DNA from: Actinomycetes bacterium
Lineage (GTDB): Bacteria; Actinomycetota; Acidimicrobiia; Acidimicrobiales; RAAP-2
Direction of reading: 5' to 3'
DNA length: 64,000 nt
Assembly: GCA_021791895.1 (NCBI GenBank)
Contig: JAJYVS010000008.1
Location: 17,973 to 81,972, forward strand
Notes under the pieces: model-generated
Databases searched by the model: none
What the model saw: the letters and a program-made list of their open reading frames with translations, nothing else
What the model was told of the DNA's origin: nothing
In this document: positions 7,360-43,360 of the stretch, piece after piece
Layout of the letters: each line of letters opens with the position of its first letter
Position numbering within the stretch: the first letter of the stretch is position 1
Translations under genes and position numbers: made by a program

Positions 7360-7751
7360 TCAGTCCGAACTGCTCGGCGACCCAAAACGAATGACGTTGC
7401 CGTCGGGGTCGACGTTCGAGCCCTCGCGCAGACCGTAGGGGGGTGGGGGGTGTCTGCGAGCGGATGGGTGATGCCGACCCCCGCCCGCTGCCACTCACCC
7501 GCCAGAGCCTCGACGTCGAGGTACGCGAGTCGGGGAGAAGGGTGGATGGGCGTGATCCCATGGCCGTGGTTGGAGTCGTCGTGCTCGTGCTCGTGCTCGT
7601 GGTGCAACGACAGGTGGACCCAACGGCGAACCCGAAGAAGTCTCTCGACTCCTAAGCGCGCGGCGTGAAGCCCAACAACCGGTAGTGCTCGATGGCGGCG
7701 CGCAGGTCCCGGACAGGAAAGATCGGGGCGAACCTGTCGAGCCTGGTGACC
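7360..7751 (-). pseudogene. VOC/glyoxalase-superfamily protein, frameshifted
   Basis: MVTRLDRFAPIFPVRDLRAAIEHYRLLGFTPRA* in one frame; RRWVHLSLHHEHEHEHDDSNHGHG..RLAYLDVEALAGEWQRAGVGITHPLADTPHPP in another; YGLREGSNVDPDGNVIRFGSPSSSD* in a third. Together these make a complete VOC domain split by at least two frameshifts. Confidence 0.8.
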
Positions 7752-7900
7752 ATGGTTCCGTGGTGCAGCGGGGGATCGAGTGCTGCCGGACGCCACAGCA
7801 GGGGATCTGGTCGGTCAACGTTCCCGAAGGGTCCGATCAGCGTCGTGGCGGCTGGGTCGGATCGGTAGAGTCGGTGGCCACCAGCGAACGAGGAGCCGAG

Positions 7901-9136: not shown

Positions 9137-9163
9137 CTCCGCGCCCTCACCAGCCGACGCGGG

Positions 9164-9972: not shown

Positions 9973-9996
9973 CTCCTTCGACCCGGGATCCGTCAC

Positions 9997-10269
9997 GTGG
10001 CCAACATCAAGAGCCAGATCAAGCGCAATCGTCAGAACGAGAAGCGCCGCCTGCGGAACAAGGCCGTGCGCTCGGAGCTGCGCACACGGACCAAGACGGC
10101 GATCGCCGCGACGGCGGAGGGGTCCGAAGGCGCCGTCGAGGCACTGCGGCTCGCGATGAAGCGGATCGACAAAGCAGCCAGCCACGGGGTGATCCACAAG
10201 AACCAGGCGGCCAATCGCAAGTCACGGCTCATGCGCCAGATCGCCGCGCTCAGCAGCGAGGCCGAGTAA
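9997..10269 (+). CDS. rpsT: 30S ribosomal protein S20 (GTG start)
   Basis: [64 protein letters not shown]. Confidence 0.98.
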
Positions 10270-10275
10270 GCGAAC

Positions 10276-11289: not shown

Positions 11290-12122
11290 CAGGCGGCTTC
11301 GGAGATCGCGGCCATGACGTCTCGGACCCGCACCGTCCCGGCGACATCGTGGACCCGCAACACTCGTGCTCCTCGCGCCATCCCGAGCGCACAGGCGGCC
11401 AGCGACGCCTCACGGCGCTCATCGATATCGAGATCGAGGGTCCGGCCGAGAAACGTCTTGTTCGAGGCGGAGAGCAAGAGGGGGTGGCCGAGCGCGGCCA
11501 GTGATTCGGAACGGCGCAGGAGCTCGAGGGACTGCAGGGCCGTCTTGCCGAGGTCGAATCCGGCGTCGACGACGATCCGGGCCGGCTCGATGCCCGCAGC
11601 GCGCGCCCGCGCCGCCCGGTCCTCGAGGAAGGCCGACACCTCGGCCACCACGTCACCGTAGGTCGGCTCGGGATCCGGGACCCGGGGGGCCACGCGGATG
11701 TGGGTGGCGACCACGCTCGCGCCGGCCGCCGCCGCCACCTCGAGATAGGCCGGGTCGCCGAAGCCACTGATGTCGTTGCCGAGCACCGCGCCGGCGTCAT
11801 AGGCGGCCTTGGCCACCGACGCCCGCCAGGTGTCGACGGAGACCGGGACGTCGAACCGCTCCACCAGGCCGGCGATCGGCTCGACGACTCGGTCGAGCTC
11901 CTCGGCCTCGGTGACTTCGGGCCCTGGACCCGCCTTCACCCCGCCGACGTCGAGGATGTCCGCGCCCTCGGCCACCAGCTGCTCGGCCCGTCGCCAGAAG
12001 GCGTCGAGCTCGAAGGTCAGCCCGTGGTCATAGAACGAGTCGGGCGTGCGGTTCAAAATCGCCATCACGAGGGCGCGGTGGGTCAGGTCGTAGGACCGGT
12101 TCCCGAGCGCCAGCTTTGGCAT
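11289..12122 (-). CDS. folP: Dihydropteroate synthase
   Basis: VMAILNRTPDSFYDHG, GADILDVGGVKAGPG, VSVDTWRASVAKAAYDAGA, VVDAGFDLGKT; C-terminal RVHDVAGTVRVRDVM. Confidence 0.93.
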   Translation of the reverse strand: MPKLALGNRSYDLTHRALVMAILNRTPDSFYDHGLTFELDAFWRRAEQLVAEGADILDVGGVKAGPGPEVTEAEELDRVVEPIAGLVERFDVPVSVDTWRASVAKAAYDAGAVLGNDISGFGDPAYLEVAAAAGASVVATHIRVAPRVPDPEPTYGDVVAEVSAFLEDRAARARAAGIEPARIVVDAGFDLGKTALQSLELLRRSESLAALGHPLLLSASNKTFLGRTLDLDIDERREASLAACALGMARGARVLRVHDVAGTVRVRDVMAAISEAA

Positions 12123-12826
12123 CAGAAGAGTCGGGCCGACAACGCCTTGCGGTAGTGCAGGGTCCTCGGGTCTGCCGGGCCCATCGCCTCTAAGAGGTCG
12201 AGAAACTCCTGGCGGGCCTGTTCATCGTCGCGCACCCGCTCGAGCAGGGCGTCGAGCAGTGTGGTGGCGTCATCGGCGACGTTCACGTCCCGCTCGCTCA
12301 GGCGGGCCCGGGCGGCGAGGCTCCGGGTCTCGGCCGACTCGGGGATCCGGGCCAGAAGTCCGAGCGCCTCCTCGGACTCACCTCGGTCCACCAAGAGGCT
12401 GGCCAGTGCGAGCACCGCGCCCGGATGGTCGTGCTCGACCTCCAGGGCCTCGCGAAGGGACGCTTCATCCCCCTTGGCCACGAGGAGGTCGGCCTCGCTC
12501 GGCGCCGGGGCCAGGCGGGCCACGAACTGGGCCACCTGGGCCTCGGGAAGGGCCCCGACGAACCCGTCGACGACCTTGGCGTCGGCCAACGCGTAGACGG
12601 CCGGGATCGACTGGACCTGGAAGGTGGCCGACACCCTGGGGTTCTCGTCCACGTTGACCTTGGCGAGCTCGACGGCGCCACCGGTCGCGTCGACCACTCG
12701 CTCGAGGATGGGGCCGAGCGTCCGGCACGGACCGCACCAAGGTGCCCACAGGTCCACGACCACCGGCACCTGCCTGGAGCGTTCGACGACGGCGGCTTCG
12801 AACGTGTCGTCGGTCACCTCGATCAT
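12122..12826 (-). CDS. Thioredoxin / YbbN-CnoX-like co-chaperone (thioredoxin + TPR-like tail)
   Basis: MIEVTDDTFEAAVVERSRQVPVVVDLWAPWCGPCRTLGPILERV, followed by tetratricopeptide-like helices. Confidence 0.92.
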   Translation of the reverse strand: MIEVTDDTFEAAVVERSRQVPVVVDLWAPWCGPCRTLGPILERVVDATGGAVELAKVNVDENPRVSATFQVQSIPAVYALADAKVVDGFVGALPEAQVAQFVARLAPAPSEADLLVAKGDEASLREALEVEHDHPGAVLALASLLVDRGESEEALGLLARIPESAETRSLAARARLSERDVNVADDATTLLDALLERVRDDEQARQEFLDLLEAMGPADPRTLHYRKALSARLF

Positions 12827-12911
12827 GACCCGGGACCCTACCTGGTGGAACGGCCGGGTCGACCGCCTTCGCCAGGACCTGGTCGCAGAGGACCCACTAT
12901 CGTCTCTCACC

Positions 12912-13946
12912 GTGGCGGTCCGAGGTATCGACGAGGAAAATGTCTCCCGCTGGTTCCAGGCAAACGTGAAGGACGCGGTCCTTCCGCTCGACTTCCAGCT
13001 CATCGCCGGCGGGCGCTCCAACCTGACCTTCAAGGTCGAGGACGCGGCCGGCCACCGCTGGGCGCTGCGACGCCCCCCGGTCAGCCACGTCTTGCCGACT
13101 GCGCACGACATGGGCCGGGAGCACCGGATCATCAGCGCGCTCGGCCCTGCCGGGGTGCCGGTGGCGACGGCGATCGGGCTGTGCGCCGACGAGGCCGTCA
13201 ACCAGGCTCCCTTCTACGTCATGGAGTTCGTGGACGGCCACATCCTGCGCAGCGCCGAGCAGGTCGTGGCCGCGTTCGATCCCGACGAGCGCTTCGCCAT
13301 CGGCATCAACCTGGCCGAGACGCTGGCCTCGCTGCACCGGATCGATCCCGACCAGGTCGGGCTGGGCGATCTGGCCCGCAGGGAGGGGTACATCGAACGG
13401 CAGATCCGGCGCTGGAGCGAGCAGTTCCGCAACGGCATCGTGGGCGGCGACGACTACGACGGGCTGGTGGAGCGGGTCGGCGGAGAGCTGGCGGCGCGGA
13501 TCCCCGAGCAGCACGGGGTCGGGATCGTCCACGGCGACTACCGGCTCGACAACACCGTCTTCAACGATGAGGCGAAGGTGCAGGCCATCTTGGACTGGGA
13601 GCTGTGCACGCTCGGCGATCCGATGGCCGACCTCGGCTTGCTCATGGTCTATTGGAACGACCGCAGCGACGAAGGCAGTGCCGTGGGGGGGTCCGCCACC
13701 ATGGCGCCGGGCATGGCCAAACGGCACGACATCGTCGAGCACTACGTCAAGGAGTCAGGACGCGACGTCGCCGCGCTCCCCTTCTTCACCGCCTTCGGCT
13801 ACTGGAAACTGGCCTGCATCATGCAGGGCGTCTACGCCCGCTACCTGGGCGGGGCGGGCGGCGGGGACACCGGCGGCTTCGACGGTTACCCCGAGACGGT
13901 CCGCCGCCTGGCCGCGACGGCGGCCGAGAATCTCGCCGCGTGGTGA
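12912..13946 (+). CDS. Phosphotransferase family protein (APH/ACAD10-like)
   Basis: LIAGGRSNLTFKVEDAAGHRWALRRPP, GIVHGDYRLDNTVF, AILDWELCTLGDPMADLGLLMVYW. Confidence 0.92.
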   Translation: MAVRGIDEENVSRWFQANVKDAVLPLDFQLIAGGRSNLTFKVEDAAGHRWALRRPPVSHVLPTAHDMGREHRIISALGPAGVPVATAIGLCADEAVNQAPFYVMEFVDGHILRSAEQVVAAFDPDERFAIGINLAETLASLHRIDPDQVGLGDLARREGYIERQIRRWSEQFRNGIVGGDDYDGLVERVGGELAARIPEQHGVGIVHGDYRLDNTVFNDEAKVQAILDWELCTLGDPMADLGLLMVYWNDRSDEGSAVGGSATMAPGMAKRHDIVEHYVKESGRDVAALPFFTAFGYWKLACIMQGVYARYLGGAGGGDTGGFDGYPETVRRLAATAAENLAAW

Positions 13947-13962
13947 TGGCGCAGCGGGTCCG

Positions 13963-14847
13963 ATGAGCCCGGAGGAACGGACCCTCTACCGGCTGCACAG
14001 CGAGCGCAGGCTCGAGCGGCCAGTGCTGATCGTCGGGTTGGAGGGTTGGGTCGATGCCGGCCTCGGTGCCGCCACCGCCGTCGCCACCATGGTCGCAGCC
14101 AGCGACAGTGACCTCATTGCCACCTTCGACAGCGACCACTTCTTGGACCAGCGGGCGCGCCGGCCGGTCGTCCACCTGCTCGACGGGGTCAACACCGAGA
14201 TGACCTGGCCACAAACCCAACTGCGGGCCGCCGAGGACGCCGCCGGCCGGGACGTCTTGTACCTGGTCGGCCCGGAGCCCGACTTCCACTGGCGGGGGTT
14301 CGTCGACGCGTCGGTCCAGCTGGCCAAGCACTTCGAGGTTCGCCTGGTCGTCGCCCTGGGCGCCTTCCCGGCTCCCGCCCCCCACACGAGACCGGTCCGC
14401 CTGGTGGCGACGGCGCCTCCCACCTCCTCCGAACTGATCGACCGGGTGGGTCGGACTCGAGGGGAACTCGAGGTCCCGGCCGGCGTGAGCTCGGCCCTCG
14501 AGATCGGTTTCGCCGAGTCCGCCATCGACATGGTCACCATCTGGGCCCGGGTTCCGCACTACGTCGCCGCGATGGCCTTTCCCGAGGCGTCGGCGGCACT
14601 GATCGACGGGGTGGCCAAGGTGGCCGGGCTCAGCTACGACGCCTCGGAACTGCGTCGGGCGGCCGACGCCTCACGCCGCCAGGTTGACGAGGTGATCGCA
14701 TCGAGTCGCGAACACGTCGAGATGGTGCGCAAGCTCGAGCACGCCGTCGACGCGTCGGAGGGCAACCCGCTCGGGATCGAGACGCTCCCCTCAGGCGATG
14801 AGCTGGCAGCGGAGCTCGAGAAGTTCCTCCGAGACGAGGAGCGTTGA
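13963..14847 (+). CDS. PAC2 family protein
   Basis: RPVLIVGLEGWVDAGLGAATAVATM..FDSDHFLDQRARRPVVHLLDGV..PVRLVATAPP. Confidence 0.88.
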   Translation: MSPEERTLYRLHSERRLERPVLIVGLEGWVDAGLGAATAVATMVAASDSDLIATFDSDHFLDQRARRPVVHLLDGVNTEMTWPQTQLRAAEDAAGRDVLYLVGPEPDFHWRGFVDASVQLAKHFEVRLVVALGAFPAPAPHTRPVRLVATAPPTSSELIDRVGRTRGELEVPAGVSSALEIGFAESAIDMVTIWARVPHYVAAMAFPEASAALIDGVAKVAGLSYDASELRRAADASRRQVDEVIASSREHVEMVRKLEHAVDASEGNPLGIETLPSGDELAAELEKFLRDEER

Positions 14848-14889
14848 GAACCTGGCGGCGCCCGGCGCCGGCCGTGAGAGGGGAAATCC

Positions 14890-15897
14890 ATGAAGATTGA
14901 CGGCGGCATCGGCTTCAGCCCGAGCGGGGTCGGCCAGGCGGCGAGAGAGGTTGAGGAGCTGGGTTACGACGGCGCGTGGAGCGCCGAGACCGGCCACGAC
15001 CCCTTCTTGCCCCTCGCTATCGCGGCCGAGGCGACCGAGCACCTCGAGCTCGGCACCGCGATCGCGGTTGCGTTCGCTCGGAACCCGATGAACCTGGCGA
15101 TGATGGCCAACGACCTCCAGCTCATCTCGAAAGGTCGCTTCATCTTGGGTCTCGGCTCCCAGATCAAGCCGCACATCACCAAGCGCTTCTCCATGGAGTG
15201 GTCGCACCCGGCCGCCCGCATGCGCGAGATGCTGCTCGCCATCCGGGCCATCTGGGACTGCTGGGAGCACGGCACCAAGCTCGACTTCCGGGGCGACTTC
15301 TACACCCACACCCTGATGACGCCGTTCTTCAACCCCGGCCCCAACCCCCACGGACGCCCCAGGATCATCCTGGCCGCGGTGGGCGAACGCATGACCGAGG
15401 TGGCCGGCGAGGCCGGGGACGGCATGATCGTGCACGGGTTCACCACCTACCGGTACCTGCGCGAGGTGACCATCCCGGCGCTCGAACGGGGGGCGGCCAA
15501 GGCCGGCAAGACCCGGTCCGATTTGACCGTGGCCTACCCGGGGTTCGTGGTCACCGGCCACGGGGAGCAGCTCGAGCAGGCCAAGACGGCCACCAAGCGC
15601 CAGATCGCCTTCTACGGGTCGACCCCCGCGTACCGGGGGGTCCTCGAACTCCACGGCTGGGGTGAGCTCGGCGATCAGCTCAACGTGATGTCCAAGCGGG
15701 GCGAGTGGGAGGCGATGGGCGAGCTCATCACCGACGAGATGCTCGACGCCTTCGCCGTGGTCGGCCCCATGGACGAGGTTCCGGCCAAGGTCGGCGAGCG
15801 CTTCGGCGACCTGGTCGACCGGTTCAGCTTCTACGCCCCCTACCGGATGGAGGCCGAGCACCTGGGCCAGGTGCTGGCGGCGTTCAAGAAGATCTAG
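14890..15897 (+). CDS. LLM-class F420-dependent oxidoreductase
   Basis: Luciferase-like fold motifs: DGAWSAETGHDPFLPLAIAAEATEHLELGTAIAVAFARNPMNLAMMANDLQLISKGRFILGLGSQIKPHI. Confidence 0.93.
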   Translation: MKIDGGIGFSPSGVGQAAREVEELGYDGAWSAETGHDPFLPLAIAAEATEHLELGTAIAVAFARNPMNLAMMANDLQLISKGRFILGLGSQIKPHITKRFSMEWSHPAARMREMLLAIRAIWDCWEHGTKLDFRGDFYTHTLMTPFFNPGPNPHGRPRIILAAVGERMTEVAGEAGDGMIVHGFTTYRYLREVTIPALERGAAKAGKTRSDLTVAYPGFVVTGHGEQLEQAKTATKRQIAFYGSTPAYRGVLELHGWGELGDQLNVMSKRGEWEAMGELITDEMLDAFAVVGPMDEVPAKVGERFGDLVDRFSFYAPYRMEAEHLGQVLAAFKKI

Positions 15898-31754: not shown

Positions 31755-34130
31755 TCAGCGGTCGGCGACCTTGCGTTCACCGCCCTCGTGGGCCGCTCGT
31801 ATCGCCTCCCAGACCCGCTGCGGTGAAGCCGGCATCGCGATGTCGCGGACGCCGAGGTGGAAGAGCGCGTCGACGACCGCGTTCATCACCGCTGGCGTGG
31901 CCGCGATGGTGCCGGCCTCGCCGACGCCCTTCACACCCAAGGGGTTCGTCGGGCTGGGCGTCACCGTGTTGGCCAGCCGGAGAGCCGGCACATCGGCCGC
32001 CGAGGGGACGAGGTAGTCGGCCAGCGTGGCGGTGCGAAGATTGCCGTCCTCGTCGTAGACGGCCTCCTCGAACAGCGCCTGGGCGAGGCCCTGCACCACG
32101 CCGCCGTGGACCTGGCCCTCGACGATCAGGGGGTTCACCTGATTGCCGCAGTCGTCCACGGCGACGTAGTCGCGCACCGTTACCTGCCCGGTCGCCTCGT
32201 CTACCTCGACCACGCAGGCGTGGGTCCCGAACGGAAAGGTGAAGTTGGGTGGATCCCATGTGACGCTGGCGGACAGACCGGGCTCCATACCGTCGGGAAG
32301 GTTGTGCGCGGTGAACGCCTCGAAGGCGATAACGGCGAACGGCACCGACCGGCTCGGCGACCCGGCGACCCGGAATCCGCCGTCGGCCAGCTCGATGTCC
32401 TCGGGCGCCGCCTCGAGCTGGTGCGCCGCGATCGTCTTCGCCTTCTCCAGCACCTTCTCGGTGGCCAGGTACAGGGCCGTTCCCCCGACCGACAGCGAGC
32501 GCGAGCCGTACGTGTCGAGCCCCGAAGGGGAGACGGCGGTGTCGGAGTGGAGCACGTCCACGTCCGCCGGGTCGATGCCAAGCTTGTCGGCCACGATCAT
32601 CGACCAGCTCGTCTCGTGCCCCTGACCATGGGGGGAGGTACCGGTGACGACCTCGACCTTGGCGGTCGGCAACACCCGGACGGTTGCCGCCTCCCACCCA
32701 CCGGCCGAGTAGTTGAGCGAGGCCAACACCCGGCTCGGCGCCAGGCCGCACATCTCCACGTAGGACGACAGGCCCACGCCGAGGTGGACCCGGCTACCCG
32801 CCGCCCGGCGTTTCGCCTGCTCGTCGCGGATCTTCGCGTACCCGATCAGCTCCAGGGCCTTGTCGAGGGCACCCTCGTAGTTGCCGCTGTCGAACACCAG
32901 GCCGGGAGCCGAGTGGTACGGAAAGGCTTCGGGCGCGATGAAGTTGCGTCGCCGGAGCTCGGCCGGGTCGATACCCACTTCCACCGCCAGCGCGTCCATG
33001 GCCCGCTCGATGGCGTAGGTGGCCTCCGGACGGCCCGCCCCCCGATAGGCGTCGGTCGGCGTCTTGTTGGTGAACACCGAGGTGCACCGAAACGAGTAAG
33101 CGGGGACGTCGTAGACGCCGTGGTACAAGAACGCGCCCAAAAGCGGGATCCCGGGGGTGACCAGCTGTAGATAAGCACCCATGTCGGCCAACAGCCGCAC
33201 CCGCACCCCGGTCACCTTCCCCTCGGCGTCGGCCGCCAGATCGATCTCCTGGACCTGGCCCCGGCCCTGGATCGTGGCCACGCTGTTCTCCGACCGCTCC
33301 TCGGTCCAGCGGATCGGCCGCTTCAGACGCCGGGCGATCGCCAGAGCGAGCAACTCCTCGGCGTACACGTCGAGCTTGGACCCGAAGCCACCCCCGACCA
33401 CCGGAACGACCACTCGGAGCTTGTGCTCGGGGATCCCGCAGGTGATGCCGAGCATGATCTTCAAGATGTGGGGAATCTGGGTGGACGAGTGGACGATGAA
33501 CTCACCCCCGAACGGCTGGGGCAGCACGCACACCCCTCGGGGCTCCATGGCCGACGGGATGAGCCGCTGCTGGACGTAACGCTCGGACACACGGTGGGCG
33601 GCGGAGGCGAACGCCGCTTCGACCATGTCGGGGTCGGGGGTGAGCTCCCAGACATACGAGGTGTTGGTCCCGAGCTCCTCATGGATCACCACCCGGTCGG
33701 ACAGGGCGTCGTCGAGTTCGATCACCGCCGGGAGGGGTTCGTAGTCGACGACCACAGCTCCGAGCGCATCAGCCGCCTGCGAGGACGATTCGGCGACCAC
33801 CACGGCGACGGCGTCGCCCACGTAGTTCGCCTTGTGGACCGCCACTGGGAAGTGGGGAGGGTTCCTCATGTCCGGGGTCACCGGCCACGCGCAGGGCATG
33901 GGTGCCGCCCACTCACCAACGAGATCCGCTCCGGTGAACACCTCCACCACGCCAGGCATCGACCGGGCCGACGACGTGTCGATCGAGCGAATGCAAGCGT
34001 TCGCCAGGACCGAACGCACCACGGCGAGATGGAGTGCACCCGGCACGACCAGGTCGGCTATATAGCGGGCCTCCCCCGTGAGGAGAGCCGGGTCCTCCTT
34101 GCGGAGCATTCGGGTACCGATCACGGGCAT
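31755..34130 (-). CDS. Xanthine dehydrogenase / CO-dehydrogenase-like molybdopterin-binding large subunit (form II CoxL-like)
   Basis: IGTRMLRKEDPALLTGEARYIADL, VGGGFGSKLDVYAEE, TDAYRGAGRPEATYAIERAMD, GQGHETSWSMI, GVKGVGEAGTIAATPAVMNAVVDAL. Confidence 0.95.
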   Translation of the reverse strand: MPVIGTRMLRKEDPALLTGEARYIADLVVPGALHLAVVRSVLANACIRSIDTSSARSMPGVVEVFTGADLVGEWAAPMPCAWPVTPDMRNPPHFPVAVHKANYVGDAVAVVVAESSSQAADALGAVVVDYEPLPAVIELDDALSDRVVIHEELGTNTSYVWELTPDPDMVEAAFASAAHRVSERYVQQRLIPSAMEPRGVCVLPQPFGGEFIVHSSTQIPHILKIMLGITCGIPEHKLRVVVPVVGGGFGSKLDVYAEELLALAIARRLKRPIRWTEERSENSVATIQGRGQVQEIDLAADAEGKVTGVRVRLLADMGAYLQLVTPGIPLLGAFLYHGVYDVPAYSFRCTSVFTNKTPTDAYRGAGRPEATYAIERAMDALAVEVGIDPAELRRRNFIAPEAFPYHSAPGLVFDSGNYEGALDKALELIGYAKIRDEQAKRRAAGSRVHLGVGLSSYVEMCGLAPSRVLASLNYSAGGWEAATVRVLPTAKVEVVTGTSPHGQGHETSWSMIVADKLGIDPADVDVLHSDTAVSPSGLDTYGSRSLSVGGTALYLATEKVLEKAKTIAAHQLEAAPEDIELADGGFRVAGSPSRSVPFAVIAFEAFTAHNLPDGMEPGLSASVTWDPPNFTFPFGTHACVVEVDEATGQVTVRDYVAVDDCGNQVNPLIVEGQVHGGVVQGLAQALFEEAVYDEDGNLRTATLADYLVPSAADVPALRLANTVTPSPTNPLGVKGVGEAGTIAATPAVMNAVVDALFHLGVRDIAMPASPQRVWEAIRAAHEGGERKVADR

Positions 34131-34393
34131 GGTCCCACCCCCTTCTGCCACCCGTCCATGAACGAGTGCAGCCCTGTCATGATGCCGCAACGTCTCCACC
34201 AGCGCTCGGGGCCGGGGGCGACGTCCTCGGCACGCCGTGCGACCGGACGTCTCGGCCTACCAGGACACCGGGCATCGTCGCCTGCTCGCAGTCACGAGCG
34301 TCATGGATCCGACCGGGCCGCGATGGCGCCGCGTCGGGGCGCTCGCCCTTCGATCCCGAGCGGAGGCGACGTGATCGGCTCAGGCGATCGGGC

Positions 34394-34681
34394 TCACCCG
34401 ATTGGCGACGTCCGGGTGATCCACAGTCCGAAGACGATGATGCCTGCGTACGCCACCGAACCGAGTAGGACCCAAACAGCAACGGGAAGTCGAAGTCTCA
34501 CAGGCTCGGACGATAGCTCCGGGTTCGAGACGAGTTCGGGGCCGCAGGGCACCGCGACCTCCGAGTCGCTGACGGCGAAGAATCCAGATGCCGGGGAATG
34601 TCTCTTCGGATCGGCGTCGTCCCCGGGCATGGCCATGCAACGGGGGCCCTCAGAGCGGGGGCAGGGCTGGCGAAGATCCAA
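34394..34681 (-). CDS. Small single-TM hypothetical protein
   Basis: C-terminal LRLPVAVWVLLGSVAYAGIIVFGLWITRTSPIG; cotranscribed orientation with the kinase gene. Start uncertain. Confidence 0.35.
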   Translation of the reverse strand: MDLRQPCPRSEGPRCMAMPGDDADPKRHSPASGFFAVSDSEVAVPCGPELVSNPELSSEPVRLRLPVAVWVLLGSVAYAGIIVFGLWITRTSPIG

Positions 34682-36059
34682 CCGCTAGCGGGATGCGCCC
34701 CTCGACCACGGTGCCGGTGCCCGGGGTCGAGCGCACGTCGAGCACCCCGCCGAGCAGCCTCGCCCGTTCGCGCATGCCCAGCAGGCCGAGATGGCTATCG
34801 CCAGGTTGTTCGCCCATCCGCTCCGAGGCGAATCCCCTCCCGTCATCGCTCACCCGCAGACCGAGGCCCTCCGCCCCGAAGTCGAGGTTCACCTGGACCT
34901 TGGTCGCCATCGCGTGGCGGAGCGTGTTGCGCACCGCCTCCTGGACGATCCGGAACGCGCCGAGCTCGACCTCTGGGGCCAGTCGGACCTCCGAGCCGGT
35001 GACGACCAGCTGGGCGGCCAGCTCCGACTCGTCCTCGACCTCGCTCATGAGCGTCGAGAGCGCCGGTACCAGGCCGAGCTCGTCGAGTGCCGGAGGTCGA
35101 AGGTCGCGAGCGAGGGTTCGCAGTCTCGCCGCCGCGTCGAGCGCCTGGCTGCGCGCCTCGTCGAGCCCACCGACCACCGCGCCGGGAAGGCCGGGGGTGC
35201 CCCCCAGGCTCTCCAGGCGACGGGCCAGGTGCAAGAAGAGCTGGAGCGGCTCGTCGTGCAGCTCGCGCGAGAGCCGCCTGCGCTGGTCCTCTTCCGCCTG
35301 GACCAGGATCTGGGCATAGCGGGTGGCTCGTCGCCCCTCGCTGCGCTCCTCGGTGACGTCCTCGAAGATCACCTGGGTAGTCCCCTGGTCCGACCCCGAC
35401 GGCAGCGACACGAAGTCCAGCCGGTAGTCCCGACCGTCGGGCAGATCGACAACCTGGCCGGAGGGGTGCTCGACGGCCCCGCCGCGCTCGAAGAAGGTCC
35501 CGATCAGGTCCTTCCCCAGAAGCCGCCGTGCCGCCGGATTGGCGTCGAGCACTTCGTCACGGTCGTTGAGCACGAGGATCGGCGAACGATTGGTCTCGAA
35601 CAGCTGCCCGTAGCGAACTTCGGCCGACCGGCGCTCGGCGATTGCACTCTCCTCCCGGGAGCGCGCCAGCCGTTCGGATTCGATGTGCTGGCCGAACACC
35701 AACCCCACCACGACGACGAGAGCCAGCTCCACCAGGTCCGACCCGACGTGGCCCTGGTCGTTGGAGAGCAAGAGGTCGGGAAGCCAGGCGAGCGTCGCCC
35801 AGACCGCTGTCGAGGCCGAGCCGGTCAGGCCGTATCGGAGCGCGGCGTACACGACCGGGATGATGAGCAGGGCCACCGGGAGACCGGCCGGGAAGGCGCC
35901 GGTCTCGGCGGAGACGTGCAGGTCGACCACCAGGTGGACGCCGGCGATGAGCAGCACCATTGCCTGGATGATCCAGAAGCGGGCCTCCCGCACCGGTGGG
36001 TGCGCAGCCCGCCGCAGCACCGTTGCGAGCTCAACCAGTCTTTGGTGCCGATCCGTCAT
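34650..36059 (-). CDS. Sensor histidine kinase (NarL-type HisKA_3, PAS domain, N-terminal TM)
   Basis: QRRRLSRELHDEPLQLFLHLARRLESL (H-box), LRVSDDGRGFASERMGEQPGDSHLGLLGMRERARLLGG (N/G box). Confidence 0.93.
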   Translation of the reverse strand: MTDRHQRLVELATVLRRAAHPPVREARFWIIQAMVLLIAGVHLVVDLHVSAETGAFPAGLPVALLIIPVVYAALRYGLTGSASTAVWATLAWLPDLLLSNDQGHVGSDLVELALVVVVGLVFGQHIESERLARSREESAIAERRSAEVRYGQLFETNRSPILVLNDRDEVLDANPAARRLLGKDLIGTFFERGGAVEHPSGQVVDLPDGRDYRLDFVSLPSGSDQGTTQVIFEDVTEERSEGRRATRYAQILVQAEEDQRRRLSRELHDEPLQLFLHLARRLESLGGTPGLPGAVVGGLDEARSQALDAAARLRTLARDLRPPALDELGLVPALSTLMSEVEDESELAAQLVVTGSEVRLAPEVELGAFRIVQEAVRNTLRHAMATKVQVNLDFGAEGLGLRVSDDGRGFASERMGEQPGDSHLGLLGMRERARLLGGVLDVRSTPGTGTVVEGRIPLAVGSSPALPPL

Positions 36060-36777
36060 GACCCTCGTGGCCGACTAGCCCGTGACCCAACGCGTAGGCC
36101 ACGGCCTCGGCCCTCGACGCCACCCCGAGCTTGGCCAGGACGCTCGACACGTGGCCCTCGACCGTGCGTTGGCCGAGGCCGAGCTCCGCCGCGATCTGCT
36201 GGTTCGAGCGACCCCGGGCGAGCACGGAGAGGACCTCGCTCTCCCGCCTGGTGAGGGCCGTCGGGGCGGCCGCGGTGCCGGTCCGCCGCCTGGTCAGCCG
36301 GCTGGAGAGCGCCTGGTCCAGCACGAAGACCCCGCCGGCGACGGCCCGCACCGCGTCGACCAGCTCTCTCGTGGTCGCCGTCTTCAGCAGGTACCCGGCG
36401 ACCCCGATCTCGAGCGCCTCGGTCAGGTACGCGTAGTCGTCGTAGGCACTGACGATCACGACCTTGACGTCGGGGAGTTCGCTGACCACCGTCCGGGCCA
36501 GGTCGAGGCCGCTCATCTTCGGCAGATGGACGTCGACCAGGGCGACGTCGGGGTGGAGCGACTGGAGGACGGTGAGCCCCTCCTCCCCCGAGCCGGCCTG
36601 GCCCACCACCTCGACCTCGGCCTCCTGCTCGAAAAGCTGGATCGTGCCCTCGCGCACCAACGTGTGGTCGTCGACGATGACCACCCGGATCGGCCGGGAC
36701 CCTCGGTCAGCGCTCCGGTCGGTCCCGGCCGCTGCCGTCTCGGGCCGCTCGTACCCGGTCGACGCGTGGTCGCTCAT
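36031..36777 (-). CDS. NarL/LuxR-family response regulator
   Basis: IRVVIVDDHTLVREGTIQLFEQ..ALVDVHLPKMSGLDLA..LTRRESEVLSVLARGRSNQQIAAELGLGQRTVEGHVSSVLAKLGV. Confidence 0.96.
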   Translation of the reverse strand: MSDHASTGYERPETAAAGTDRSADRGSRPIRVVIVDDHTLVREGTIQLFEQEAEVEVVGQAGSGEEGLTVLQSLHPDVALVDVHLPKMSGLDLARTVVSELPDVKVVIVSAYDDYAYLTEALEIGVAGYLLKTATTRELVDAVRAVAGGVFVLDQALSSRLTRRRTGTAAAPTALTRRESEVLSVLARGRSNQQIAAELGLGQRTVEGHVSSVLAKLGVASRAEAVAYALGHGLVGHEGHDGSAPKTG

Positions 36778-36922
36778 CTCACCACCGGCCCTCCCGGCCC
36801 ACCCGACGCGTCAACGGAGGATACCTACGTGGAACTTCGGCCCGGTCCCGGATGATCCGGGGTCCCCGAGGCGTACTCTCCCCGTTCCCGACCGGGCTCG
36901 TCGGGCGCACGATGGAGGGGTG

Positions 36923-37126
36923 ATGATCGTGGTTGCAGTCCTGATGGGGGCGGCCGTCGTGGCCCTCACCCTCTGGCTGCTCGCGGCGGTGACGGCCACG
37001 GCTCTCACGCTGGTCGATGCCCGACGGCACCGGCGGCTGGCCGCGGACCTCGACGCGGCGCTGGTCGAGATTCTCGGGCCGAGAACCCCCGAGGCCCCCC
37101 AGGTGCACGCGACCGGACGAGGCTGA
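36923..37126 (+). CDS. Small single-TM hypothetical protein
   Basis: MIVVAVLMGAAVVALTLWLLAAVTATALTLVDARRHRRLAADLDAALVEILG. Confidence 0.5.
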   Translation: MIVVAVLMGAAVVALTLWLLAAVTATALTLVDARRHRRLAADLDAALVEILGPRTPEAPQVHATGRG

Positions 37127-37164: not shown

Positions 37165-38160
37165 TCACTGCGTGACCAGTGCCGGCTCGGCCGGTGGCTC
37201 GATCGCCGACCCACCCTGGTCGGGAGGGACGTCGGGCGGTGACGTCTGTTCCTCCAGGGTGTGGGCAACCCGCCGGAGGAAGGAGCGCACGGTGGCACTG
37301 GCGACGCGCGCCAGCACCGTCTCGTCCAGCACCTGACCGGCCCGGCCGAACGGTGGCCGATAGCGACCCGAGAGCGTGAGCTCGGTCCGTTCGGCGTCGA
37401 TGGCCCGGAGCCCTAGCTCCCCGTCGAACCGGGGGAACAGCCCCGTCGGCCCGGTGGCCGCCCAACCAACCGGAATGACCAGGGCCTCGTCGGTCCCCTC
37501 GGGCTGACCGAGGCGCACGGCCACGGTCTTGCCGAGCCAGCTGGGCCCCCCAGGGCCGACCCGCAGCCTGGTCGTCTCGTGCTCGGCCGAGGCCGCCTCG
37601 ACGTGCGGCGTCAGCCAGGACCCGCCGGCCCGCAGCCGGGCCGCCACCGCGGCCGAGGCCAGCTCGATCTGGATGGAGTCGGCCAACGACACCGTGAGCG
37701 CCGGCCACTGGGCGTCCGCCGGCCACCCCGTGTCGTCCCCGGCCGGCGCCGCCGGTTGCGCCACGTCGGCCAGGCTGGCCGAGACGAGCTCGGAGCGGAG
37801 GGCGGCCGTGGCCGCGCTCCAACGCTCGTGCAGGGGGCAGAACGCACCGCTGTCGCACGGCCCCTCACCGAGCGTGCAGGTCTCGGCGACCAGGGGACCC
37901 TCGCCGGCCTCGACCAGCTCCAAAAGGGTGATCTCCTCTGGCGGGCGAGCCAGGCGGTAGCCCCCGTCCCGGCCGAAGGAGGGGACGGCGAGCCCGGCAT
38001 GGACCAGGTCGCCGAGGATCTGGGAGACGAAGGTCCGGGGGATCCCCATCTCGGCCGCCACCTGGCGCAGCTTCCTCGGCACCCCCGACTCGTGGGCCCG
38101 GGCGAGATAGATCGCCGAGCGCACCACGTAGTCCCCGCGCTTGGAGAGCTTCAGGTTCAC
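37165..38160 (-). CDS. Rrf2-family Fe-S regulator fused to an SRPBCC/START-like domain
   Basis: N-term LKLSKRGDYVVRSAIYLARAHESGVPRKLRQVAAEMGIPRTFVSQILGDLVHAGLAVPSFGRDGGYRLARPPEEITLLELVEAGEG; Cys cluster ETCTLGEGPCDSGAFCPLH; C-term WLGKTVAVRLGQPEGTDEALVIPVGWAATGPTGLFPRFDGELGLRAIDAERTELTLSGRYRPPFGRAGQVLD. Confidence 0.85.
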   Translation of the reverse strand: MNLKLSKRGDYVVRSAIYLARAHESGVPRKLRQVAAEMGIPRTFVSQILGDLVHAGLAVPSFGRDGGYRLARPPEEITLLELVEAGEGPLVAETCTLGEGPCDSGAFCPLHERWSAATAALRSELVSASLADVAQPAAPAGDDTGWPADAQWPALTVSLADSIQIELASAAVAARLRAGGSWLTPHVEAASAEHETTRLRVGPGGPSWLGKTVAVRLGQPEGTDEALVIPVGWAATGPTGLFPRFDGELGLRAIDAERTELTLSGRYRPPFGRAGQVLDETVLARVASATVRSFLRRVAHTLEEQTSPPDVPPDQGGSAIEPPAEPALVTQ

Positions 38161-38164
38161 AACA

Positions 38165-38230
38165 TCAAGTGTAGTCCCTAACTTGACATTTACTCAAGTA
38201 GTAGTACTGTGCCAATAGGTAGTTCTACGG
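38165..38230. promoter_or_regulatory. Divergent promoter/operator of Rrf2 regulator and NapH-like gene
   Basis: Perfect inverted repeat ACTTGA (38181-38186) N7 TCAAGT (38194-38199), extra half-site TCAAGT (38165-38170), TTGACA -35-like element (38183-38188) with TACTGT at 38205-38210, and GTAGTTCTACGG (38219-38230). Confidence 0.65.
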
Positions 38231-38278: not shown

Positions 38279-39832
38279 ATGGTCCTCGAGGTGCAAGATC
38301 GAGCAGCCCCTCAATCCGACCCCATCGCCGCGGCGGTCAAGCTGCGTCCACGGGTGCTTGAGGGGTCCGAGCAGCGCTTCGGTCCTTCGGACCCGGATCC
38401 CAACCTCGACCTGCTCCAGCGGCCGAGGATCGCCAGGCTGGTCCGCAACCGCAAGTTCCAGTTCCTGCTCATCCTGCCCAACCAGATCGTCTTTTGGACG
38501 GTGATCTTCGTCGGCCTGCTCGGGACGGCGATTCCCGGCCTCAACTTCGGCGCCGCCATCACCTGGTACGTCTGGTTCTGCCTGGTCTTCGTCATGATGG
38601 TGGTGGTCGGCCGGGCGTGGTGCGCGATGTGCCCCTTTGGCGGCTTCGCCGAGTGGATCCAGCGCCGCACCCTCTGGCAGCGCACCCAGAAGGCCCTCGG
38701 ACTCGGCCGGAAGTTCCCCGAGCCCCTCGCCCGGCTCGGCTTCATCCTCCCGGTGGGCACCTTCCTCCTCCTCACCTGGATCGAGGAGTTCTTCAACATC
38801 GCGGGGCCCGGCAATCCGGCCGCCACCAGCTTCATGGTGATCGGCATCGTGGTCACCGCCCTCGCCTTCTTCTTGGTCTTCGAGCGGCGCACCTTCTGTC
38901 GCTACATCTGCCCGCTCACCTCGCTCATCGGCACCGTCGGCTCGATGGGGACGGTGGCCGGGTTCCGCACCAAGGACCGCGACGTGTGTCTCAACTGCAA
39001 GACCAAGGACTGCATGCGCGGTGGTGAGCAGGGCTTCGGATGTCCCTGGTACACGTGGCCCGCGAGCGCCGACTCGAACCTGTACTGCGGCCTGTGCAGC
39101 GAGTGCTACAAGTCCTGCCCGGAGGGCAACGTCGGGCTGTTCTTGCAGAAGCCCTTCACTTCGGTGGTCGCCCCCCGGCGTCGGCGGGCCGACATCGCCT
39201 GGGCGATCGCCCTGCTGTGGGGTCTCGTGCTCTACCAGCAGATCAACGCCACCAACTTCTTCGGCGTCATCGACAACTGGCTGAACACCGAGCTGCACTT
39301 CCCCCACTACCCCAACCCGGTCGACTACCTGGGCATGATCGGGGTGCTGGCCCTGGCCACCGCCGGCGTGGGCTGGATGATCGCCAAGATCTTCGCCCGC
39401 CGTGACCTCGAGCTCGACCGCCCGGGCGCCTTCGCCGATCGGAGTTCTCGGTTCCGGGCCTTCTTCGTCCCCTTCGCCTATGGGCTCATCCCGATCGTCG
39501 GGGCCGACTACTTCGCCCGCCAACTGCCGAAGTTCCTCCAGCACGCCCCGCGGGTGGTGCCGGCGGTGGCCCACATCTTCGGGGCCTCCTCGTCACACTC
39601 GGCCATCTACAACTTCTCACTCGCCACCAACGGCTGGATCGTGGTCGTCCAAGTGGTGGTGGTGGCACTCGGCACCCTGGCCGCCGCCTGGTCGATGTGG
39701 AAGATCTCGGGCCGAGAGCTGGCCTCCATCAGCACGAGCCGGCTCGGTGTGCGCCTGACCACGCTGGCGGTGGTGCTCGGCTCGGGGACCGTGGCGGCGT
39801 TGTTGTACGTGATCATGCACGCAGCGGACTAG
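38279..39832 (+). CDS. NapH/NosR-like membrane-bound 4Fe-4S polyferredoxin
   Basis: Several TM segments; RAWCAMCPFGGFAEWIQRR, RRTFCRYICPLTSLIG, CLNCKTKDCMRGG..GCPW, LYCGLCSECYKSCPEGNVGL. Confidence 0.9.
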   Translation: MVLEVQDRAAPQSDPIAAAVKLRPRVLEGSEQRFGPSDPDPNLDLLQRPRIARLVRNRKFQFLLILPNQIVFWTVIFVGLLGTAIPGLNFGAAITWYVWFCLVFVMMVVVGRAWCAMCPFGGFAEWIQRRTLWQRTQKALGLGRKFPEPLARLGFILPVGTFLLLTWIEEFFNIAGPGNPAATSFMVIGIVVTALAFFLVFERRTFCRYICPLTSLIGTVGSMGTVAGFRTKDRDVCLNCKTKDCMRGGEQGFGCPWYTWPASADSNLYCGLCSECYKSCPEGNVGLFLQKPFTSVVAPRRRRADIAWAIALLWGLVLYQQINATNFFGVIDNWLNTELHFPHYPNPVDYLGMIGVLALATAGVGWMIAKIFARRDLELDRPGAFADRSSRFRAFFVPFAYGLIPIVGADYFARQLPKFLQHAPRVVPAVAHIFGASSSHSAIYNFSLATNGWIVVVQVVVVALGTLAAAWSMWKISGRELASISTSRLGVRLTTLAVVLGSGTVAALLYVIMHAAD

Positions 39833-39844
39833 CGGGGAGATCCA

Positions 39845-42088
39845 ATGACCATCAGCGACACGATGTCAGCGGCGACAATGACCCACCCCGGAGTGAGGAT
39901 CCTCGCCGACCGCTGCGCCGGATGCGAGGAGTGCGTCGTCCGTTGCCCCACCCAGGCCTTGACCATGGACACCGAGCACTGGGTGGCACTCGCGAACAGC
40001 GATCTGTGCGTCGGCTGCCGGCAGTGCGTTCGGACCTGCCCGTTCAGCGCCGTCGTCGTCGAAGGACCGGCGCTCGTCGCCCCCCGCATCGACCCTGAGC
40101 CGATCCATCCGGCCCGTCTCCGCAACGACGTGAGCGAGATCCGTGCCGGGTTCGACGGTTGGGTGGAAGCCCTCTCCGAGGCCGAGCGGTGCCTCCAGTG
40201 TCCCGACCCGACCTGCGTGCGAGGCTGCCCGGCCCACAACGACATCCCCGGCTTCATCAACAAGATCCGCCAGGGGGACCTGACCGGTGCCCAGACGATC
40301 CTCCGTCGAACCTCGGTCTTGACCGACATCTGCTCCCGGGTCTGCAACCACGCGGCCCAATGTGAGGGTGCCTGCAGCTGGTCGCTCGCCGGGGACGTCC
40401 CTGTCGCCATCGGCCGCCTCGAGCGGTTCGTGGCTGACACCCAGCCGGTGCCGCCCCCCTTCGTGCCCTCGACCGACACCAACCTGTCCGTCGGCATCAT
40501 CGGGGCGGGACCGGGGGGAGCGGGCGCGGCGTGGGAGCTCGTCGAGGCCGGGGCGTCGGTCACCGTCTACGAGAAGGACCCCACGCCCGGCGGCCTCTGC
40601 CACTGGGGCATCCCCGACTTCACCCTGCCCGAGGCGGTGTCCTCCAGGCCGTGGCGCCAGCTGGTGGACGCCGGCGTCGACCTGCGCTCCGGCGTCGAGG
40701 TGAGCCCCGGGGACCTCGAGGAACTCCTCGGGCGTCACGACGCCGTGATCGTCGCCCTCGGCGCCAGCCAGCCCATGCGGCTCTCGGTGCCCGGTTCGGA
40801 CCTGGGCGGCGTCATCGACGCCACCACCTTCCTCCAGGGGGCCAAGGCAGCCCTCGGCGATGGTGGGGACCCGGAGGGATGGTGCAGCGCGCTCGGGGTC
40901 GAGAGCCAGGACGTCCGCCACGGACGCTTCGGCTCCCGGGTGCTGGTGCTCGGCGCCGGCAACACCGCGATGGACGTGGCCCGGAGCGCCCGGCGCCTCG
41001 GGCTCGACGCCACCTGCGTCGACTGGCTCGACGAGCGCTTCGCCCTCACCCGCCCCGACGAGCTCGACGAGGCCCGCCAGGAGGGGGTCGAGGTCCGGTT
41101 CCTGCGCACCCTGGTCGCCTTGCACGCCAAGGACGATCGGGTCGGTCGGGCCGAGCTGGCACTCACGACCCAGGACCGTGCCGACCGGCGTCCCAACGTG
41201 CTCGCCAAGGGTCACGAGTTCCTCGACGTCGACCTAGTCGTGATGGCCATGGGCTATCGCCGGGACCCGGCGTTCACCGACGCACTCCCCGACACCCCGG
41301 TGCGCCGGGTCGTCGTCGGTGTCCCCGACCGCCGCTGGACGGCGAGCGGGATCCTGGCTGCGCCGGCGTCCTCCTACGCCGACGGCAACCCGGTCGGGAC
41401 CCTCGCCCTCGGTCGTGAAGTGGGCCTCGAGAGCGCGGCTCTGCCGGTCACCGATCGCCTGTGGGTCATCGGCGACGCCCTCATCGGGCCGGCGACGGTG
41501 GTCGAGGCCATGGCGCAAGGACGACGGGCCGCGCTGGCCGTGCTCGACGCCCGCCCGGCACGGCCGGGGTCGACCACCGGGGAGTCGGCCGATCGGCCTC
41601 GCCGGGTCCTCGTCTGCTACGAGAGCCTCGGCGGCAAGACGGCCAAGGCGGCCGAAGCGCTCGCCGACCGCCTCTCGGTGGACGGAGACGAGGTCCGGGT
41701 CCTGCCGATCCGCAAGGTCGGGCGGACCGAGCTGGCGGCGTCGGACCTGGTCGTCGTGGGAACTTGGGTCGAGGGGCTCCTGGTCGCCGGGGTCCGGCCA
41801 GCCAAGGCGATGCGGGCTTGGCTGGCCGGGCTTCCCCGACTCGGGGGCAAGCAGTTCGCCCTGTTCTGCACCTACGCGCTGGCGCCGAAGGGCACGATCC
41901 CGGCCATGCGCCGAGCGCTCGAGGCAAAAGGGGCGGTGGTCGTGGCGCAGGCCGCCTTCGGGCCGCGCGAGCTCGCCGACACGGCGGCCGCGTTCGGACC
42001 AGCGGCTTTCGGCCAGGAGCTCGCCCACCGAGCCCGGGCAGGAGCTTCATCGGGGGCCTCCGTCGGGTATCGGACGGTCCCTCGGTGA
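39845..42088 (+). CDS. Ferredoxin - GltD-like FAD/NADPH oxidoreductase - flavodoxin triple-fusion protein
   Basis: CAGCEECVVRCPTQA and CVGCRQCVRTCPFSA; CLQCPDPTCVRGCPAHNDIPGFINKIRQGDLTGA; VGIIGAGPGGAGAAWELVEAG; VLVLGAGNTAMDVARSARRLG; C-terminal VLVCYESLGGKTAKAAEALADRL..DLVVVGTWVEGLL. Confidence 0.9.
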   Translation: MTISDTMSAATMTHPGVRILADRCAGCEECVVRCPTQALTMDTEHWVALANSDLCVGCRQCVRTCPFSAVVVEGPALVAPRIDPEPIHPARLRNDVSEIRAGFDGWVEALSEAERCLQCPDPTCVRGCPAHNDIPGFINKIRQGDLTGAQTILRRTSVLTDICSRVCNHAAQCEGACSWSLAGDVPVAIGRLERFVADTQPVPPPFVPSTDTNLSVGIIGAGPGGAGAAWELVEAGASVTVYEKDPTPGGLCHWGIPDFTLPEAVSSRPWRQLVDAGVDLRSGVEVSPGDLEELLGRHDAVIVALGASQPMRLSVPGSDLGGVIDATTFLQGAKAALGDGGDPEGWCSALGVESQDVRHGRFGSRVLVLGAGNTAMDVARSARRLGLDATCVDWLDERFALTRPDELDEARQEGVEVRFLRTLVALHAKDDRVGRAELALTTQDRADRRPNVLAKGHEFLDVDLVVMAMGYRRDPAFTDALPDTPVRRVVVGVPDRRWTASGILAAPASSYADGNPVGTLALGREVGLESAALPVTDRLWVIGDALIGPATVVEAMAQGRRAALAVLDARPARPGSTTGESADRPRRVLVCYESLGGKTAKAAEALADRLSVDGDEVRVLPIRKVGRTELAASDLVVVGTWVEGLLVAGVRPAKAMRAWLAGLPRLGGKQFALFCTYALAPKGTIPAMRRALEAKGAVVVAQAAFGPRELADTAAAFGPAAFGQELAHRARAGASSGASVGYRTVPR

Positions 42089-42106
42089 CGAGAAGAGGGG
42101 GGTGCC

Positions 42107-42703
42107 ATGAAAAAGCGTCCCGGGTACCGGAGGCATCTGGCTAGCGCCTACGTTCGGATCTACCGACCGCTCGCACCTCGGGGTCGACGGCGTTTCTCCT
42201 TCGATCAGAGGATGGCGCGCTGGTGGACCCGGCTCGACGTGATCGCCTACCGCCACTTCCGCCTCAGTCTCGGCGTCAAGGCCCTCGGGGTCGACGACGT
42301 GCTCGTGCTGCGCACCCGTGGCAGACGGAGCGGCCAGGTGCGAGAGGTGTTGGTGGCCTACGTCGAACTCGACGGGTCGCCGGTCGTCTGCGGCGCCAAC
42401 GGGGGCTGGGACCACGTCCCGGCCTGGTTCGTGAACCTACGGGCCGGCGGACCGGTCGAGATCGAGCGACACGGCCGCCGCCAGGTCGTGCGACCCGTGG
42501 TCCTCGAAGGTGAGGCGGGCGAGGCGGGCCTGTCGGCCGTGCTCTGCGCCTTCCCCCACGTCGGCCTGTATCGCTCCCGCACCCGGCGCAGCTTCCCCCT
42601 GGTGCGCCTGGAGACGATCGATGCCCCACCCGGCGCGCTCGCGGCCGACGAGACGGCGGCCACCCGTCGGGGTCCGCTCCTCGTCTCCGCCTCGTCGGGC
42701 TAA
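42107..42703 (+). CDS. Nitroreductase/deazaflavin (F420)-dependent family protein (Ddn-like)
   Basis: VLVLRTRGRRSGQVREVLVAYVELDGSPVVCGANGGWDHVPAWFVNLRAGGPVEIERHGRRQVV. Confidence 0.85.
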   Translation: MKKRPGYRRHLASAYVRIYRPLAPRGRRRFSFDQRMARWWTRLDVIAYRHFRLSLGVKALGVDDVLVLRTRGRRSGQVREVLVAYVELDGSPVVCGANGGWDHVPAWFVNLRAGGPVEIERHGRRQVVRPVVLEGEAGEAGLSAVLCAFPHVGLYRSRTRRSFPLVRLETIDAPPGALAADETAATRRGPLLVSASSG

Positions 42704-42790: not shown

Positions 42791-43360
42791 TCAGTTGCCG
42801 GCGCAGCGGACAAAACGCGTCAACGCCCCGAGGCAGCGTCGGGTGATGGCGAGCTGCATCGCCCGACCCACTGGAGCGACCACCCAGGGCAAGGCGCCGG
42901 CCGGTCGCGAAAAGGCGGTGATCACGAAGAAGGTGCCCTCGTTACGGCGCTCGACCACGAAGGCCTCCTCGCCGCGCTCTGGGTGCCCCGGCAGCGTGCC
43001 GTAGACGAACCCGAACCGGTCGGCCTCCTCGACGACCGAGACCACCCGGCAGGGGGCGACGATCTCGGCCGGTCCGAACGCCAGGTGGGCCAGGAAGGTG
43101 GCGCCCTCGAGCAGCGGTTGGCCGGGCGGGAAGACGTGGATGTCCGCCCCCTCGTGCGGCACCCAGCGGCGGAGGCCGGTGACGGCCCGATCGAACGCTT
43201 CCGGCCCGCCGAGCCGCAGGTCGTGGCGGTCGTGGCGATAGCCGGACGGGAGATCGCCGCCGAGGGTCGCGCCGCGCTCGGGATAGGAGAGCTCCTCCTT
43301 GTTCGCCTCGCCGAGGAGCGCATCGAGCGTCGCCGCCGAGGGATGGCCGAGGACGAGCAT
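42791..43360 (-). CDS. DUF1990 family protein
   Basis: LSYPERGATLGGDLPSGYRHDRHDLRLGGPEAFDRAVTGLRRWVPH..VSVVEEADRFGFVYGTLPGHPERGEEAFVVER. Confidence 0.85.
   Translation of the reverse strand: MLVLGHPSAATLDALLGEANKEELSYPERGATLGGDLPSGYRHDRHDLRLGGPEAFDRAVTGLRRWVPHEGADIHVFPPGQPLLEGATFLAHLAFGPAEIVAPCRVVSVVEEADRFGFVYGTLPGHPERGEEAFVVERRNEGTFFVITAFSRPAGALPWVVAPVGRAMQLAITRRCLGALTRFVRCAGN

Follow-up and report, generated by a model that had tools for sequence, protein, structure and literature searches.

A conserved NapH-like and GltD-type gene pair with an optional flavodoxin domain in Acidimicrobiales: a candidate NAD(H)-linked electron-transfer unit

Introduction

Members of the Acidimicrobiales are often met in acidic soils, peat and mine waters, and little is known of the wiring of their electron transport. 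We analysed a stretch of 64,000 nucleotides (hereafter the window) from an Acidimicrobiales metagenome-assembled genome (MAG; 2.83 Mb in 102 contigs), in which a gene for a NapH-like membrane polyferredoxin stands directly before one for a ferredoxin-GltD-flavodoxin fusion. What would such a pair of proteins do, and with which partners would it exchange electrons? A preliminary description had proposed a membrane-linked branch point between NAD(P)H, quinone and flavodoxin, perhaps serving nitrogen oxides, Fe-S repair or F420. We found no account of a polyferredoxin, GltD and flavodoxin unit in the open-licence literature, and the NapH-like/GltD-type pair looks like an undescribed electron-transfer unit. 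It is compact, conserved and self-regulated, and its presence in a sequenced cultured species, Acidimicrobium ferrooxidans, makes it directly testable.

Results

Gene layout

Three genes had been placed on one strand, and the open reading frames bear this out: they lie on the + strand at 38279-39832, 39845-42088 and 42107-42703, separated by 12 bp (NapH-like to fusion) and 18 bp (fusion to Ddn-like), with a purine-rich, ribosome-site-like stretch before each of the three starts. Gene calls come from a simple ORF script, and most of the loci considered are metagenome-assembled. The features of the locus are as follows.

34650..36059, - strand: membrane histidine kinase (MASE1-like segment, PAS, HisKA_3, HATPase), a neighbour conserved in 45 loci
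36031..36777, - strand: NarL/LuxR-type response regulator, a neighbour conserved in 45 loci
37165..38160, - strand: Rrf2-family regulator, 331 aa (Pfam Rrf2), divergent from the operon
38167..38187, no strand assigned: operator-like repeat AAGTGTAGTCCCTAACTTGAC, in the intergenic region that separates rrf2 from the napH-like gene
38279..39832, + strand: NapH-like membrane polyferredoxin, 517 aa (Pfam Fer4_5; about 9 TM helices)
39845..42088, + strand: ferredoxin-GltD/NfnL-flavodoxin fusion, 747 aa (Pfam Fer4, Fer4_20, Pyr_redox_2, weak Flavodoxin_1)
39893..40063, + strand: N-terminal 2[4Fe-4S] ferredoxin domain of the fusion, about aa 17-73 (C24/27/30/34 and C55/58/61/65 invariant)
40076..41569, + strand: GltD/NfnL-type core of the fusion, about aa 78-575 (Cys for 2 more [4Fe-4S]; FAD and nicotinamide Rossmann domains)
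41597..42049, + strand: C-terminal flavodoxin domain of the fusion, about aa 585-735 (FMN phosphate loop S-x-x-G-x-T)
42107..42703, + strand: Ddn-like / F420H2-dependent quinone reductase family protein, 198 aa (Pfam F420H2_quin_red; TIGR00026)

A DUF1990 protein is encoded just downstream on the opposite strand (42791-43360, - strand; Pfam E 4e-46). In the gap between the response regulator and rrf2, at about 36916-37126 (+ strand), lies the end of a short reading frame with a single hydrophobic helix (MIVVAVLMGAAVVALTLWLLAAVTATALTLVDARR...), which could be a small membrane protein. A gene at 31755-34199 (- strand) encodes the large subunit of a molybdenum hydroxylase; we take its AYRGAGR motif to mark the type of form II CoxL / aldehyde oxidase.

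A conserved two-gene unit

Scanning one genome per species (85,462 genomes), we retained 80 loci matching the fusion protein, and in nearly every one the NapH-like gene adjoins the fusion gene. Conservation over 80 loci excludes a chance arrangement, and the gene order establishes the NapH-like and GltD-type genes as a two-gene unit conserved among Acidimicrobiales from soil and mine water. The neighbours that recur are an Rrf2 gene (54 loci), the kinase (45), the response regulator (45) and the Ddn-like gene (9); beyond these, no further conserved gene family surrounds the pair in the 80 loci.

The Ddn-like assignment itself stood up. The protein matches F420H2_quin_red, passes TIGR00026 (Ddn / F420H2-dependent quinone reductase family) at 62.6 bits against a cut-off of 46.35, and matches 3r5l with E 2e-6; since an F420 ligase gene is present in its own genome, it could have its cofactor available. 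However, with this gene in only 9/80 loci we rejected F420 as the core function: judged by gene neighbourhood, the two-gene unit is the essential part and the Ddn-like gene a lineage add-on.

The 80 loci are titled almost without exception as Acidimicrobiales, Acidimicrobiaceae or actinobacterial MAGs, and the few titled Acidobacteria are interleaved with these on the tree or by identity. Within the species collection the closest relative is an Acidimicrobiaceae MAG (L004), with 95% identity in the fusion protein. The NapH-like protein is encoded (E <= 1e-60) by 62 of 299 genomes from the order, among them that of A. ferrooxidans, where the pair lies at L084 8618-12495, and the pair is also present, without the flavodoxin, in one genome of another class of the phylum (G384, L092). 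Four genomes (G582, G591, G619 and G059; loci L103, L106, L109 and L087) hold a second, paralogous pair of NapH-like and flavodoxin-less GltD genes, which forms a separate, well supported clade.

The membrane subunit

The polyferredoxin had been credited with at least four Cys clusters, and conserved cysteines are indeed found at four motifs: C115/C118, C207/C211, C237/C240/C245/C255 and C270/C273/C276/C280 are invariant or more than 90% conserved among 59 homologues, distant relatives included. The protein shares with NapH, NosR and RdhC a Fer4_5 membrane module with Cys-Cys-Pro motifs, and with NapH and NosR two [4Fe-4S] motifs, here C237/240/245/255 and C270/273/276/280. The CX3CP motif is typical of NapH, NosR and RdhC (PMC5928378), whereas here only the second motif (C207-x3-C211-P) has that spacing, the first being CX2CP (C115-x2-C118-P). 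We call the protein NapH-like rather than NapH because of this first motif and its additional helices, about five in number. It scores 29.9 bits against the whole-protein NapH model TIGR02163 (cut-off 213.05), the FMN-binding domain of NosR/RdhC was not found in it, and its partner, unlike those of NapH, NosR and RdhC, is a cytoplasmic NAD(H)-type flavoenzyme. Its structural model has a mean pLDDT of 79, falling to about 50 around residues 241-270, and neither a fold search with this model nor a PDB profile search returned a significant relative.

The topology signal is seen in the sequence: the loops predicted to lie inside contain 11, 7, 14 and 5 Lys plus Arg against 0, 0 and 0 for those outside, as the positive-inside rule would have it. 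On hydropathy and loop charge, the cysteine motifs are therefore predicted to face the cytoplasm.

NapH membrane segments are proposed to oxidise quinol, and NapH/NosR proteins serve periplasmic reductases (PMC5928378). By analogy, the pair might supply electrons to a dedicated terminal reductase encoded elsewhere, for ferric iron, nitrogen oxides or some other acceptor. Ferric iron is reduced by A. ferrooxidans as well as by further cultured Acidimicrobiaceae (PMC8790237), the module is present in at least 11 genomes with the family code of A. ferrooxidans (f3), and by distribution alone a link to ferric-iron reduction is suggested. The predicted cytoplasmic orientation weakens that link, as the Fe-S clusters would face the cytoplasm whereas ferric iron and periplasmic reductases would be outside. 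In addition, the module turns up in MAGs titled after peat (palsa) or permafrost sites, settings in which iron respiration is unproven, and among the conserved neighbours in 80 loci neither a terminal reductase nor any napG-, napC- or napA-like family recurs. The nitrogen-oxide role raised in the preliminary description fares no better: such a reductase does not recur near the module in the 80 loci, none was seen by eye at the A. ferrooxidans and G134 loci, and we rejected this link. Supply of a dedicated terminal reductase is thus, in our estimation, distinctly unlikely.

Distant NapH-like relatives occur in other settings as well. In G450 (L095:2605-10721) the gene follows those for a molybdopterin oxidoreductase, an ethylbenzene-dehydrogenase-type (EB_dh) subunit and a cupredoxin; a quinone-linked setting is plausible for this neighbourhood, possibly that of a quinone-linked enzyme of another kind.

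The soluble subunit: cluster domains, core and nicotinamide preference

An alignment of 61 relatives of the fusion protein has 16 invariant Cys together with an invariant E193. The GltD/Nfn cluster ligands of the core are C116/119/124/128, C163/167/173/177 and E193, and by their number the 16 Cys would suffice for four [4Fe-4S] clusters. The AlphaFold model (mean pLDDT 87.9; like all structures here, a prediction without cofactors) matches Nfn large subunits, Xfn, GltD and dihydropyrimidine dehydrogenase in Foldseek, with 5jca_L at E 5.5e-34.

Fer4_20, two Rossmann domains and the conserved cluster ligands place the core in the GltD/NfnL type, at 30% identity to NfnL/NfnB and GltD, but the whole protein belongs to none of the characterised families. 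It scores 246 bits against the NADPH-dependent glutamate synthase model (cut-off 471.75) and 216.7 against the GltD model (cut-off 482.95), while the best GltD-like curated model gives 252 bits against 516; by whole-protein scores both core proteins fall far below every curated family cut-off. The fusion differs from NfnL/NfnB and GltD in its extra N-terminal 2[4Fe-4S] domain, its C-terminal flavodoxin, its membrane partner and its V-D-W in place of YRR, and no gene for the NfnS or GltB partner of NfnL and GltD is adjacent. DsrL likewise combines a GltD-type core with an added 2[4Fe-4S] ferredoxin domain, and the same cofactor motif logic applies to it (PMC7596348), but its ferredoxin domain is C-terminal and it works with DsrAB, whereas that of the fusion is N-terminal and the partner is NapH-like. 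AegA/YgfT (formate-dependent urate utilisation) also have Fer4 domains before a GltD core. Plasmid matches reach 28-31% identity but leave the flavodoxin region unmatched, no plasmid record covering 80% of the fusion, and the fusion scores only 197.5 and 183.9 bits against the AegA and YgfT cut-offs of 1003 and 1154.

The YRR motif binds the NADP phosphate in NfnB and DsrL-2, and DsrL enzymes without YRR prefer NAD(H) (PMC7596348). YRR is absent from the fusion, which has V-D-W at that position, and the acidic form V/I-[DE]-W is found family-wide, including flavodoxin-less members with a readable motif. Since YRR is replaced in this way, we predict that the enzyme uses NAD(H) and not NADP(H).

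An optional, tethered flavodoxin

On the single sequence the domain scores no higher than the Pfam thresholds, and the Flavodoxin_1 match is weak (22.1 bits, cut-off 25). However, a profile built from 39 relatives hits short-chain flavodoxins with E 1e-10 to 4e-12 (PDB 2fz5, E 3.7e-12), the FMN phosphate loop residues S594, G597 and T599 are invariant, and most blocks of residues 590-715 are modelled at pLDDT 93-97. Failure to show an FMN-flavodoxin fold had been named as grounds for abandoning the proposed system; instead, profile, loop and confident model indicate that the domain is genuine, and from its loop it is predicted to bind FMN. It resembles clostridial-type short-chain flavodoxins in fold and in the S-x-x-G-x-T loop, and differs in being fused to a reductase and in having another loop after strand 3.

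The triple fusion is thus real in the window but is not the general form, since 17 relatives end before the flavodoxin domain with no contig break, and these keep the adjacency of the NapH-like and GltD-type genes. On a tree of the core (a quick search), the flavodoxin state needs at least 7 changes, 4 of them forced by well supported branches, and both the outgroup and the paralogous clade lack the domain; this suggests that the domain was gained and then lost repeatedly. Close stand-alone homologues of the flavodoxin occur in G059, G619, G591 and G582. We rejected a stand-alone flavodoxin as a general substitute in flavodoxin-less genomes, as it was found in G059, G619 and G591 but not in most others. 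The natural forms with and without the domain provide a ready experiment on the role of the tethered flavodoxin.

The core is most like the large subunit of bifurcating Nfn, and there are two possible exits, ferredoxin/flavodoxin and the membrane. These features raise the possibility that NADH electrons are split, one branch running through the NapH-like subunit to quinone and the other to a low-potential acceptor, the N-terminal ferredoxin or the flavodoxin, in the manner of Nfn or FixABCX. But non-bifurcating GltD-type enzymes have the same core, no NfnS-like subunit stands beside the pair or among its conserved neighbours in the 80 loci, and many relatives lack the flavodoxin, and we consider bifurcation very unlikely. 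We give equally little credence to its fullest form, a new quinone-coupled flavin-based bifurcating complex in which the GltD/NfnL-type FAD would oxidise NADH and send one electron to quinone and the other to the tethered ferredoxin/flavodoxin, feeding low-potential metabolism such as hydrogenase-4-like complexes. If bifurcation were true, it would constitute a new coupling site.

A local, probably Rrf2-controlled switch

The divergent Rrf2 protein has the Fe-S ligand pattern C95-x6-C102-x5-C108-P, and its three Cys (C-x6-C-x5-C), the mark of Fe-S-sensing regulators of the IscR/NsrR/RirA type, are conserved in 95, 89 and 91% of 88 homologues. It nevertheless falls far below the IscR, NsrR and RirA equivalog cut-offs, and its C-terminal domain is unusual, being weakly like polyketide cyclase/SRPBCC in relatives.

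An Rrf2-controlled promoter had been proposed from the gene order, and the conserved operator-like repeat at 38167-38187 supports it. The AAGTGTAGTCCCTAACTTGAC repeat overlaps a -35-like TTGACA, and ACTTGAC is found upstream of the napH-like gene in 46/70 loci against a mean of 1.3 and a maximum of 5 in shuffled sequence, which establishes the operator as a sequence signal; the regulator that binds it would be the operon's own Fe-S-type Rrf2 protein. With one mismatch allowed, the full operator pattern has 1 match in the window's own genome, just upstream of the napH-like gene, and in seven other genomes there are single matches in three, each again just upstream of that gene. We rejected a regulon beyond the operon, since the operator occurs at most once per genome and always before the napH-like gene; on this pattern it is a local switch.

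Fe-S-type Rrf2 control resembles that by IscR-type regulators, and together with the flavodoxin domain it could point to Fe-S repair or cofactor reduction, that is, to a ferredoxin/flavodoxin reductase for IspG/H, P450 or cluster assembly that is merely membrane-attached. Such a role would have no need of a nine-helix quinone-type subunit, and no isc/suf or similar family recurs nearby, which leaves it highly doubtful.

A proposed membrane-anchored NAD(H)-linked oxidoreductase

In the reading that we favour, with a probability of about 0.45, the core pair codes for an oxidoreductase of two subunits that is anchored in the membrane, linked to NAD(H) and of the quinone type, the tethered flavodoxin being optional. 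The membrane-linked NAD(P)H/Fe-S/flavin unit of the preliminary description survives in this reading, narrowed to NAD(H) by the motif, while quinone is the partner that we infer, in line with the quinol oxidation proposed for NapH membrane segments (PMC5928378) and with the plausibly quinone-linked neighbourhood in G450. NAD(H) and FAD would be bound in the GltD/NfnL-type core of the soluble subunit, and electrons would pass along its four [4Fe-4S] clusters. If the subunits form a complex, these clusters would make contact, at the cytoplasmic face, with the NapH-like subunit and its own two [4Fe-4S] clusters, and that subunit would exchange electrons with the quinone pool, in whichever direction the flow is set. 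In many species the tethered FMN flavodoxin may act as a one-electron buffer or outlet. The operon's own Fe-S-type Rrf2 sensor, commonly with the kinase/regulator pair, would switch the operon. Because it stands under these controls, the operon probably serves to keep NADH and quinone in balance as oxygen or redox state shifts. If the unit is an NAD(H)-quinone oxidoreductase, two known parts are joined in an arrangement that we did not find described in the open-licence literature.

Complex I and hydrogenase-4-like complexes

A NuoF-type complex I subunit is encoded in all 62 genomes tested, and we rejected the module as a complex I replacement. Since complex I is present throughout, a second NADH:quinone route would be redundant unless conditional. 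Partnership with 2-oxoacid:ferredoxin oxidoreductase was also rejected, with no association between the two (24/30 genomes with the module, 23/32 without).

A search for the [NiFe] hydrogenase large subunit gave partial matches almost confined to module-bearing genomes, and most of these belong to hydrogenase-4-like complexes. A HyfF-like gene is present in 23/30 module-bearing genomes and 0/32 others (Fisher 3e-11, with sampling not independent of phylogeny); in the family to which the window belongs the split is 3/3 against 0/9 (p 0.0045). We treat this association as a lead. It would fit an electron feeder, in which the module connects NADH/quinone with a ferredoxin/flavodoxin pool for hydrogenase-4-like (Ehr/Hyf-like) complexes or [NiFe] hydrogenases. 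In G654 (L115:9868-16708) group 3b hydrogenase genes begin 70 bp downstream of the pair on the same strand (hydrogenase/sulfhydrogenase beta, gamma and alpha, and a maturation-protease-like ORF), and in G582 the stand-alone flavodoxin lies about 6.5 kb from a HyfF-like gene. However, 7/30 module genomes, including A. ferrooxidans, lack a HyfF-like gene, outside these cases the hydrogenase and Ehr-like complexes do not lie next to the module, and presence follows clades, such that lifestyle alone could explain the correlation. A feeder role is therefore unlikely, though not negligibly so.

The NuoD/HyfG-like large subunit of the Ehr-like complexes (L135-L143) lacks CxxC in 8/9 cases, only L140 having two. 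We use the term Ehr-like for this reason: with these ligands missing, the large subunit would be unable to bind NiFe, and most of the complexes are probably not hydrogenases. Next to these complexes (L135-L143) a gene for a small regulator of the ArsR type is found repeatedly. The window's own genome encodes a hydrogenase-4-like (Hyf/Ehr-like) membrane complex (L134, G000:C26:1-20000; 7523-14892, - strand), whose NuoB-like subunit (9550-10578) has GSDGAEE, GTDAT and GSPP where relatives such as L135 have the Cys ligands of GSCNGCE, GDCA and GCPP; judging from these replacements, it seems to have lost its cluster.
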